Source: an uncultured Arenicella sp.
GTDB taxonomy: Bacteria; Pseudomonadota; Gammaproteobacteria; Arenicellales; Arenicellaceae
Direction of reading: 5' to 3'
Length of the DNA: 36,537 nt
Assembly (NCBI GenBank): GCA_937989675.1
Contig: CALKRK010000007.1
Location: 1-36,537, forward strand
Part shown: one piece after another, positions 1 to 4,753 of the stretch
How the letters are laid out: each line of letters starts with the position of its first letter
How positions within the stretch are numbered: position 1 is the stretch's first letter
Position numbers and translations under genes: made by a program
The notes under the pieces: generated by a model
What the model was told of the DNA's origin: nothing
The model's input: only the letters and a program-made list of their open reading frames with translations
Databases searched by the model: none

Positions 1-291
1 CAGAGTGTTGCGCCCAGCCTTTTTGGGAAGTGAGCTAATCAGTTTGCTTAGCGCGCCTGAAACGTTAGTCTGCGGGCAAAACGAATCTGTCGTGGCATTA
101 AATAACTCAGCTAGGGCGCTCTTAAAGCGTTCAATTTCGTGCAGCCATTGCGGCCAAATATCATCTTGGCTGCTTTGCCAGTGGGCAAAAAAATGTTGTT
201 CGCAGTACGCATGTGTCGAGACCGGCATCTTACCGATCGAATGCGCCAGCAAGTAAACGTCGTTACTTTCGCTGAATAGTTCTTGGTGCAT
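1..291 (-). CDS. Partial class-V aminotransferase fold / kynureninase-like PLP enzyme (N-terminus only, runs off the window)
   Basis: Reverse strand translates MHQELFSESNDVYLLAHSIGKMPVSTHAYCEQHFFAHWQSSQDDIWPQWLHEIERFKSALAELFNATTDSFCPQTNVSGALSKLISSLPKKAGRNTL with no stop to the window edge. The ATG at 291..289 lies 3 nt after the stop of the upstream ORF. Not in the ORF track because it is truncated. Confidence 0.75.
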   Translation of the reverse strand, partial: MHQELFSESNDVYLLAHSIGKMPVSTHAYCEQHFFAHWQSSQDDIWPQWLHEIERFKSALAELFNATTDSFCPQTNVSGALSKLISSLPKKAGRNTL

Positions 292-294
292 TAT

Positions 295-1488
295 CTAGCC
301 TTTGTCGTGTAGGGCTTTGCGAAGTTTTTGAAAATCTTCGAAACGGCTTGGAATGCCAACTACATCAGCTGCGGAGCGTAAGTCACACAGTTTTTTCAAA
401 CCTCTTATCAGCACATCTAGTGGCGGGCCGCTGGCGGTCAGGTTTTCTTCGCCCTGCAAATGGTCGCGCTCAACCGGGTGTTCAATAAATCGGCTGATTA
501 ACATTTCATGATGTTGAATTGCGGTTTGTCCATGCAGTTCACATACTTCTAAGAAGGCTTGAGCGTTCTTTTCAAACCAACTTGCTTCTGAGTTACTTCG
601 CCTAGCATCAAGTGTGGACAAAAAGCTATCCAACAAGCTCTCGCGACGCATGCAATCGCGCAATACCAGCTGATCTTCTGGGCGCATAAAGAGAAATTTA
701 TCGACCAGCAGTTGTGAGTAGTAAGGGTCATCGGCACGGCACACGCCGAGCAGCAAATCGATGACATTGATACCAGCAAAATCACCGGCGTTGGCACCAC
801 GATATTCATGTAAGCCAACGCGGTGAGGTTTGTAGTAGGGGCGCACGCAGTAAAAGAAGCGGTCGACATCCAGTTCTGCGAATAACTTTTTGTTGTTGTC
901 GATGACTTCTTGCAAATCGCGTTTGGCGGCCAACAGTAAGTCGTAGGTAACTGGGTGCGAAACGCCCAGTGGTAATGTGTGCAAAAGTGCTTCAGACGCG
1001 CGAATAAAAGCGAACACACCGCGAGTGTTGTAGTCTAAAAAAAGTGCTTCGTCTTTTAATGAGGTGAATGTTTTATAGATGCCGTTAATAGCGCGATTAT
1101 GGGTTTCCAAATGAGCGGAAGCAAAACGCGGAATTACACCAAGTGACGCGCCGAGCTGCATTGCCAGAGCGGAAGCTTCAACCAACGGTGACTTTCGTTC
1201 GCGTGATGGTTCAGTTAAGTCATGGCGACGACACGCCGCCATAAAGAAGCCGACATTGCCAAGTAGATCAAAGCCGTTGTCAAAACCTTCGTCGGTGTTG
1301 CCTTCGCTTAGCAGGGTTTGTATGTGTTCGTTGCCTTGAACTAATAATTGTTGTTTGAGCGTATCACCGACTTTGTCTACTGTATTGCGATCTTTCTGTT
1401 TGAAATAAAGCTCTTCAAGCTCGGTGTTGATTTGCTTAAATTCGTTTCGAATCCAATGATCGAAATTCCTTGAGTTGCGAGTTTTCAT
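295..1488 (-). CDS. PrnB-like (DUF1864) protein of the IDO/TDO heme dioxygenase superfamily
   Basis: 397 aa ORF with RPYYKPHRVGLHEYRGANAGDFAGINVIDLLLGVC...RPEDQLVLRDCMRRESLLD. C-terminal HHEMLISRFI and ASGPPLDVLIRGLKKLCDLR resemble the heme-His and GTGGT..LK..R regions of IDO-type enzymes. Confidence 0.65.
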   Translation of the reverse strand: MKTRNSRNFDHWIRNEFKQINTELEELYFKQKDRNTVDKVGDTLKQQLLVQGNEHIQTLLSEGNTDEGFDNGFDLLGNVGFFMAACRRHDLTEPSRERKSPLVEASALAMQLGASLGVIPRFASAHLETHNRAINGIYKTFTSLKDEALFLDYNTRGVFAFIRASEALLHTLPLGVSHPVTYDLLLAAKRDLQEVIDNNKKLFAELDVDRFFYCVRPYYKPHRVGLHEYRGANAGDFAGINVIDLLLGVCRADDPYYSQLLVDKFLFMRPEDQLVLRDCMRRESLLDSFLSTLDARRSNSEASWFEKNAQAFLEVCELHGQTAIQHHEMLISRFIEHPVERDHLQGEENLTASGPPLDVLIRGLKKLCDLRSAADVVGIPSRFEDFQKLRKALHDKG

Positions 1489-1716
1489 GGTGATGTTTCG
1501 TGGGCAGTTATGAGCATGATAGCAGGCATGCCAATCATCTTGCCATGTTAGTGCCCGAATCTAACTCAAGCGCTGCGCGCAGCTTATCTGGCCGCATAAA
1601 CTACGATAAATTTGTCATGCACCTTTGTTTGATGTGGGTCACTTGCGACAAGTCATGAGTCGGCGTATTTTTGGAGTCTCGAATAAAGGTGCACGCCACA
1701 CTAGGAGGAAGTGTTT

Positions 1717-2683: not shown

Positions 2684-4753
2684 ATGAAAATAAAAATATT
2701 GGCGGCGGCCAGTTTAAGTTTACTCCCGTTAGTTGGAGCCGCAGAAGATCTCGAAGAAATTATTGTGAAAGCCCACCCTTTATCAGATAAAGGGCTTGCG
2801 CAAGATGTGCGCGTGCTTACTGGCGATGAGTTAGCCAGTGAACTACAGTCATCTTTGGGTGAGACCGTTGCGGGTCAGCCGGGTGTGCGATCAGCGAGTT
2901 TCGGTGGCGCCGTTGGCCGCCCTGTTATTCATGGTTTAGGAGGCGCTCGGGTTAAAACCACTGAGGACCGAATCGACAGTTTAGACGCGTCGGTAACAAG
3001 TACAGATCATGCCGTAACGGTCGAGCCCTTTGTTGCAAATCAAATTACCGTGTTGAAGGGAGCCAGTACTTTGTTGTATGGGTCTGGTGCGATTGGCGGT
3101 GTTGTTGATACTGAGACTGGCCGAATACCTACTGAGCTACCCGATGAGCCGGTTTCTGGCCGCGTGGAGCTTAGGCTTGCCGACAATGGCGATGCCAAAA
3201 CTGGTGCTGTAAGGCTGGACGGGGCCGCGGGTGATGCCCTTGCTTGGCACCTTGATGCATTTAGCAAAGAGGCCGATGATTATGAAATTCCTGGGGAAGT
3301 TGAATCGGCGGCTTTGCGAGCCTCGGAAGGCGAAGAGCACGACGAGGAAGAAGAAGGAGAATTCGGTTTGCTCGAAGGCAGCCGTTATGATATTTCCGGT
3401 GGCGCTGTTGGCTTAAGCTGGGTGCAAGATGGTGGCTTTATCGGATTTTCAGTAAGTACTTTGGACGCTGATTATGGATTGATTGGTGGGCATGGCCACG
3501 AAGAAGAGGAAGGCCATGATGAGGAAGAAGAGCACGGTGAAGAGGAGGAGCATGACGAAGAGCTCGAGGAAGAAGGCGTTGGCATGATTGGTCTCGAGCA
3601 AACGCGTTTTGATATCGAAGCGGGGTTGAATAACCCATTTGCTGGTGTCAAAACATTGAATTTCCGCTTGGGTGTTAATGATTATGAGCACACTGAGTTT
3701 GAAGGTAATGGAGAAGTAGGAACAGTCTTTGATAATCAAGCTTGGGAAGGGCGACTGGAGTTGTCGCATGAAGAGTTAATCGGTTTTGACGGGACATTTG
3801 GGCTTCAGCTTAGCAATCGCGAGTTCAGCGCTTTGGGTGAAGAAGCGTTTGTACCGCCGGTAGAGACAGACCTGACGAGTGCTTTCTGGGTAGGAGAGCG
3901 TGATTTGGCTGGCGTGTCGCTGGAGACCGGTGTGCGCTTTGAAGAGGTTAAGCATCGGCCCTCCGTTGCGGGGCTCCCTGAACGAGATTTTTCAACAGGC
4001 AGTGCGTCAATTGGTGTTGTCGTGCCTCAGAATGACACCATTCGATGGTCAGCGTTGTTAGACTACTCCGAGCGCGCGCCGAGCATCGAAGAGCTTTATT
4101 CCAATGGCCCCCATCTAGCGACTCAGAGTTTTGAGATCGGCGATACTGAACTAGATAAAGAGTCTGGGCTAGGGCTTACCTTAACTTGGGTTTACGAATC
4201 AGATGGTTTCGATGCGCGTGCGTCTCTCTACCACACGCGCTTCGATGACTTCATCTTTGAAGTGGCTAGTGGTGAAGAAGAAGATGAACTGCCAGTGTTT
4301 GTTTATCAGCAACGTGATGCCGATTTTACTGGAATAGATATAGAGCTTGGACTGCATTTAGCTGAAATGGCTGGTGGTGATTTAGATCTAAAATTGATGG
4401 GTGATTGGGTCAAAGCTGAAGTCAGTAATCCTAATCAGTATCTGCCAAGGATACCCGCCACCCGCGTTACAGCAGGCTTAGACTGGCAGAACTCAGTTTG
4501 GAGAACCACGCTAAAGTTCACCCATGTTTTCGAGCAAGATGAGTTTGCTCAGTTTGAATTGCCTACAGAATCCTATAATGATGTGAGTTTCCGAGTTGCC
4601 CGAGAATTTGATCTTGGTGAAAATGCATTGTCTGTATTTTTCAGTGGTCGTAATATCACCGACGAAGAGCAGCGCCAGCATACCTCATTCTTGAAGGATG
4701 TTGCGCCCGCGCCAGGCCGTCGTCTAGAGTTGGGAGTCAGGTTAAACTTCTAA
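2684..4753 (+). CDS. TonB-dependent receptor with His/Glu-rich extracellular loops, ZnuD-like zinc receptor candidate
   Basis: Signal peptide; plug (EEIIVKAHPLSD...GQPGVRSASFGGAVGRPVIHGLGGARVKTTEDRIDSLDASVTSTDHAVTVEPF...ASTLLYGSGAIGGVVD); C-terminal beta-barrel signature ending LELGVRLNF; insert GGHGHEEEEGHDEEEEHGEEEEHDEELEEEG. Confidence 0.88.
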   Translation: MKIKILAAASLSLLPLVGAAEDLEEIIVKAHPLSDKGLAQDVRVLTGDELASELQSSLGETVAGQPGVRSASFGGAVGRPVIHGLGGARVKTTEDRIDSLDASVTSTDHAVTVEPFVANQITVLKGASTLLYGSGAIGGVVDTETGRIPTELPDEPVSGRVELRLADNGDAKTGAVRLDGAAGDALAWHLDAFSKEADDYEIPGEVESAALRASEGEEHDEEEEGEFGLLEGSRYDISGGAVGLSWVQDGGFIGFSVSTLDADYGLIGGHGHEEEEGHDEEEEHGEEEEHDEELEEEGVGMIGLEQTRFDIEAGLNNPFAGVKTLNFRLGVNDYEHTEFEGNGEVGTVFDNQAWEGRLELSHEELIGFDGTFGLQLSNREFSALGEEAFVPPVETDLTSAFWVGERDLAGVSLETGVRFEEVKHRPSVAGLPERDFSTGSASIGVVVPQNDTIRWSALLDYSERAPSIEELYSNGPHLATQSFEIGDTELDKESGLGLTLTWVYESDGFDARASLYHTRFDDFIFEVASGEEEDELPVFVYQQRDADFTGIDIELGLHLAEMAGGDLDLKLMGDWVKAEVSNPNQYLPRIPATRVTAGLDWQNSVWRTTLKFTHVFEQDEFAQFELPTESYNDVSFRVAREFDLGENALSVFFSGRNITDEEQRQHTSFLKDVAPAPGRRLELGVRLNF

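Follow-up and report, generated by a model that had tools for sequence, protein, structure and literature searches.

Among solved structures, the nearest relative of the heme protein described here is SO4414 of Shewanella oneidensis, whose structures (1zee, and 2nwb with ferric heme) have been public since 2005–2006. Forouhar and colleagues reportedly described SO4414 in their 2007 PNAS paper on TDO, and to our knowledge no activity is known for any member of its family. Searching the openly accessible literature (subscription journals were mostly outside our scope), we found no described reaction for SO4414 and no published work on SO4414/SO4413 or on a pair made up of PrnB and kynureninase. 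In PrnB, the characterised namesake of the wider family, Ser319 in the substrate-closing loop binds the Trp carboxylate and glycines 210 and 211 of the GAGGG motif contact the same group; reconstitution of its activity from purified enzyme has yet to be achieved (PMC11791213).

We examined a window of 36,537 nucleotides (contig CALKRK010000007.1, assembly GCA_937989675.1, from an uncultured Arenicella sp.), at the start of which an earlier note, made from the sequence alone, had proposed a PrnB-type protein coupled to a kynureninase-like PLP enzyme. The two genes form a nearly obligate pair, found across many marine bacteria almost exclusively together, and this pairing points to a two-step oxidation, so far uncharacterised, of an aromatic amino acid. 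While the heme subfamily was already known by structure, we found nothing published on its dedicated, remodelled PLP partner. The features of the locus are given in Table 1.

Table 1. Coordinates of the paired genes and adjacent features, in window positions.
Feature	Position	Strand	Remarks
PrnB/SO4414-type heme enzyme, 397 aa	295..1488	minus	ATG at 1488, TAG at 297-295; intact ORF
Kynureninase-fold PLP partner, N-terminal 97 of 368 aa	1..291	minus	Remainder on contig C92 (L003:2066-2878)
Coupling junction	292..303	minus	Shine-Dalgarno-like AAAGG at 303-299, 7 nt ahead of the partner ATG
Intergenic region upstream of the heme gene	1489..1710	.	No Lrp/AsnC gene; no promoter signal above chance level

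Read on the minus strand, the junction is AAAGG CTAGATA ATG, in which the TAG stop of the first gene is followed by a 3-nt gap and then by the partner's ATG at 291; the AAAGG lies within the 3' end of the heme-enzyme gene. The partner's ORF exits the window after 97 residues. These residues alone matched no profile, so the class-V assignment is not provable from the window by itself. A second contig of the same assembly (C92) terminates in the window's first 141 bases, an exact 141-bp overlap as with assembly-graph neighbours. Read across the overlap, the partner is 368 aa long and aligns over its whole length with partners from other genomes, and the join is therefore very probably right. The joined protein contains Aminotran_5 (PF00266, E = 9e-28), carries an invariant K205 and D179, and has the fold of class-V (fold type I) PLP enzymes, which bears out the proposal of such an ORF 3 nt past the stop.

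The search beyond position 1 that the earlier note had called for thus completed the partner, and it also reached molybdenum hydroxylase genes directly downstream (L003, contig C92, 3-1978), comprising a small [2Fe-2S] subunit and a large subunit with a Tat-like start. These genes lie beside the partner in the window's genome only, and with no recurrence in other carriers we rejected them as a third component. On the other side of the pair, a divergent 166-aa ORF with a signal-peptide-like start and no Pfam match occupies 1711-2211, and a TonB-dependent-receptor-like ORF at 2684-4753 carries long runs rich in His and Glu (GGHGHEEEEGHDEEEEHGEEEEHDEE), which hint at metal binding.

The 397-aa ORF, noted earlier for PrnB-type motifs, contains the C-terminal motif that had been reported for it. 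Pfam PF08933 (PrnB) covers residues 4-393 (profile positions 2-387 of 387) with E = 1.1e-177 and 591 bits, against a curated cut-off of 27 bits, and Pfam IDO does not match the protein. Scored with the profile of its own family, SO4414 reaches 702 bits, PrnB 37, and human IDO1 20; true PrnB is thus distant (about 33–37 bits). Foldseek, queried with an AlphaFold model of mean pLDDT 71 built on a shallow alignment, ranks SO4414 first, then PrnB entries, then IDO1/IDO2 (E from 1e-28 to 1e-3). Sequence and fold therefore agree on membership in the PrnB/IDO heme superfamily, and neither search placed the protein outside it, the outcome named beforehand as counting against the claim. As PF08933 comprises both true PrnB (a fragment of which scores 295 bits) and the SO4414 type, a family match alone cannot tell the two apart, and we rejected it as proof of PrnB function. 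One weak PF08933 match, in genome G040, turned out to be a true IDO.

Several residues of the superfamily can be placed by alignment. The second residue of an invariant His pair, H327 (15/15), aligns to His346 of IDO1, the axial (proximal) heme ligand of the human enzyme. By alignment only, H327 is the putative proximal ligand here; heme is present in the solved relative 2nwb. F211, F212, and R216 align, both by eye and by computation, to IDO1 Phe226, Phe227, and Arg231, the last of which is a carboxylate contact; R216 is invariant. A TASGPP loop, also invariant in the family, is probably the counterpart of the PrnB substrate-closing loop, a placement of our own. The GANAG motif is nearer to the GGSAG of IDO than to the GAGGG of PrnB, and an invariant Leu127 sits where the PrnB pocket has Val117/Tyr104. 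The protein is a member of the superfamily with a pocket of its own, so no functional name of PrnB, IDO, or TDO can be assigned to it.

The partner shows a comparable mixture of kept and lost features. Its best PDB profile match is the kynureninase of P. fluorescens, in whose numbering the residues below are given. Against the TIGR01814 kynureninase profile it scores 105.9 bits (84–123 for the rest of the family), well below the equivalog cut-off of 246.4 bits. The equivalents of Asp132, His204, and Tyr226 are absent in 14/14 partners and present in 11/11 true kynureninases. In all fourteen partners Asp132 is replaced by Ala/Met/Ile/Val, His204 by Gln, and Tyr226 by Ile/Val/Leu; Asn230 is Cys. 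Tyr226 and Asp132 are important for kynureninase catalysis. Retained are the Schiff-base Lys227 (K205 here), Asp201 (D179 here), the equivalents of Trp64, Trp256, His259, and Thr282, and the GWxxH motif. In a phylogeny the true kynureninases form a separate long branch with full support, while two more distant proteins (L110, L112) group beside one partner with weak support, so that the limits of the partner clade are approximate. In fold comparison kynureninase ranks level with cysteine desulfurase and C-S lyase, so the partner's reaction cannot be read from its fold. The label 'kynureninase-like' given to it earlier must be read as descent or resemblance, in which sense it is apt (kynureninase is the best profile match), and not as function, for which both the score and the lost residues speak against it.

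We then looked at how the two genes are distributed. In one even sample of the phylum (399 genomes), PF08933 was above its cut-off in exactly six genomes and the partner was found in the same six, where its profile scored over 390 bits, with a gap from 393 to 200 bits before the next protein. The chance of six and six overlapping in this way is 2e-13 if genomes are independent, which as lineages they are only in part. In the window's genus, thirteen genomes have both genes and five have neither, and the partner adjoins the heme gene in 13/13 of the PF08933-bearing genomes (across a contig break in G003). The same gene order recurs in ten Shewanella, two Ferrimonas, Litorirhabdus, and three further complete genomes. 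Two of the six carriers in the sample of 399 keep the genes apart. In G689, G798, and Parvularcula (G437) both are present though far from each other, so hitch-hiking does not account for the association. The distances of the two proteins are also correlated (mirror correlation r = 0.74), a value reached by 0 of 5000 permutations. The two-enzyme cassette proposed earlier is thus much tighter than was suggested at the time.

A few genomes lie at the margin of this pattern. One carrier, MAG G440, has no detectable partner, and its assembly is small. Among plasmids, a Novosphingobium megaplasmid (NZ_CP117882.1) has the one copy of the heme gene found. The partner search in Novosphingobium covered this plasmid, whose nearest PLP gene, a weak partner candidate (L034, 14751-16298; 141 bits), lies 5.6 kb from the PF08933 gene and has Gln at the His204 position. 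Viral contigs held no relative of the heme gene.

Flanking genes vary by lineage, which leaves the pair itself as the functional unit. Genes for an acyl-CoA dehydrogenase and for a DcuA-type transporter were rejected as further components, each being confined to single lineages. An Lrp/AsnC gene is divergent upstream in ten related loci (eight confirmed by Pfam), though not at the window copy; regulators of this type commonly respond to amino acids.

On balance we lean slightly towards a dedicated unit in which an aromatic L-amino acid is first oxidised by the heme oxygenase, with the PLP partner cleaving or rearranging what results. In the first step, a His-ligated heme oxygenase from the SO4414 subfamily of the PrnB/IDO superfamily would oxidise the ring of the amino acid with O2. 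Our best guess at the substrate is tryptophan or an indole-bearing relative, and a substrate of the tryptophan type is plausible. In the second, a PLP enzyme whose lineage split off close to kynureninase would bind the oxidised amino acid as a Schiff base on Lys205 and then break or rearrange its side chain, using an acid/base set unlike that of kynureninase. The analysis shows the family membership of the two proteins, the coupling of their genes, their obligate pairing, and the differences in the active site; the use of O2, the substrate, the order of the reactions, and the product are what we infer here.

Another explanation is a compact kynurenine route, in which the heme protein would be a Trp dioxygenase replacing TDO/IDO and the partner a divergent kynureninase releasing alanine from kynurenine or N-formylkynurenine. 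There was no TDO in the 15 named carriers or in 21 relatives, and IDO occurs in 3/13 and true kynureninase in 9/13 of the genus genomes, so something may supply kynurenine. The retention of the FF..R and G.xAG motifs and of the axial His in the heme protein is consistent with this, as is the partner's top profile match to kynureninase. However, residues diagnostic of kynureninase are gone from every partner, the score is far under the equivalog cut-off, and a true kynureninase exceeds that cut-off in only 1/15 named carriers. The pair also has no formamidase alongside it, in contrast to an operon of IDO, kynureninase, and hydrolase in G040. We therefore consider this route unlikely, and the plain kynurenine pathway raised in the earlier note is not supported on the same evidence, with true kynureninases found elsewhere in the genus.

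The G040 operon (L044, contig 29, 930-4281) encodes an IDO (PF01231, 325 bits), a true kynureninase (316 bits), and an alpha/beta-hydrolase, and is the canonical kynurenine operon, here in a different family within the order. Separate true bacterial IDOs occur in both the genus and the order. With separate loci for true kynureninase and IDO, and a textbook operon in a neighbouring family, the pair thus runs parallel to the kynurenine route, without its formamidase. At the true kynureninase loci of the genus (L071-L079), the gene mostly follows an alpha/beta-hydrolase with a signal-peptide-like start. These genomes mostly lack TDO and IDO, and uptake or the PrnB-like protein are candidate sources of their kynurenine.

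The heme protein might instead carry out PrnB chemistry, giving a cyclised or rearranged, pyrrolnitrin-like Trp product that the PLP enzyme tailors, the two belonging to a small pathway for a natural product. PrnB is the nearest characterised family by both sequence and fold, and cyclic products are also possible from IDO (PMC12921851). Yet the pair, whose flanks are lineage-specific, has no recurring neighbour that encodes a halogenase, a Rieske oxygenase, or another enzyme of such a pathway, and occurrence in most species of a genus fits metabolism better than a secondary-product cluster. As the earlier note had seen for the window, a scan of window and flank proteins turned up no halogenase, nor the prnABCD cluster that would mark a functional PrnB. 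Together with the distance of true PrnB, this makes pyrrolnitrin chemistry, and PrnB chemistry more broadly, quite improbable. That the partner is a C-S or sulfoxide lyase or a desulfurase, with the heme protein oxidising a sulfur-bearing or non-indole amino acid, is highly improbable: cysteine desulfurases and C-DES rank beside kynureninase in the fold search, Gln182 replaces His204, EgtE matches weakly (58 bits), and Cys72 and Cys208 are invariant, but kynureninase is the partner's best sequence profile, its GWxxH motif and Trp64/Thr282 equivalents are kynureninase-like, and the characterised heme-superfamily members named in PMC11791213 use aromatic amino acids.

Returning to the dedicated oxygenase and PLP unit, a more specific version is possible, and we hold it only tentatively: the IDO-fold heme enzyme would make an oxidised aromatic amino acid other than N-formylkynurenine or a pyrrolnitrin precursor, on which a rebuilt, kynureninase-derived PLP enzyme would perform a new C-C cleavage or rearrangement, the whole making up an undescribed two-step pathway. 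The pair would then illustrate how a kynureninase-like fold can be re-purposed after losing active-site residues. A near-obligate PLP partner is also a concrete reason why an SO4414-type enzyme alone might appear inactive, and it names the component to add. Culturable Shewanella commonly carry the pair, so this can be tested there directly and at once.

Set against known systems, the partner shares with kynureninase (1qz9; TIGR01814) the class-V PLP fold, the Schiff-base Lys, and the equivalents of Asp201, Trp64, Trp256, His259, and Thr282. It differs in reaching 106 of the 246 bits needed, in the replacement of Asp132, His204, Tyr226, Asn230, and Asp95, in an unlike C-terminal Arg region, and in its distinct branch of the tree. 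The heme protein aligns with indoleamine 2,3-dioxygenase at the axial His and at the FF..R and G.xAG motifs, but has no Pfam IDO match and is 12–15% identical by fold alignment. With PrnB (2v7i, 9dfg) it shares the Pfam family, the IDO fold, an invariant H126 aligned to PrnB His116, and the carboxylate-side Arg. Identity to PrnB is 14–17% by fold alignment, however, with GANAG in place of GAGGG and the invariant Leu127 in place of Val117/Tyr104 in the pocket, and the window gene is paired with a PLP partner, the prnA/C/D genes not being seen. SO4414 is by far the closest: it is 59% identical over nearly the full length, has the same fold and the same family-invariant residues, and has relatives in ten Shewanella genomes with the same partner downstream. 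Nothing essential separates the two, and the window gene looks orthologous to SO4414, a protein described merely as a putative 2,3-dioxygenase.
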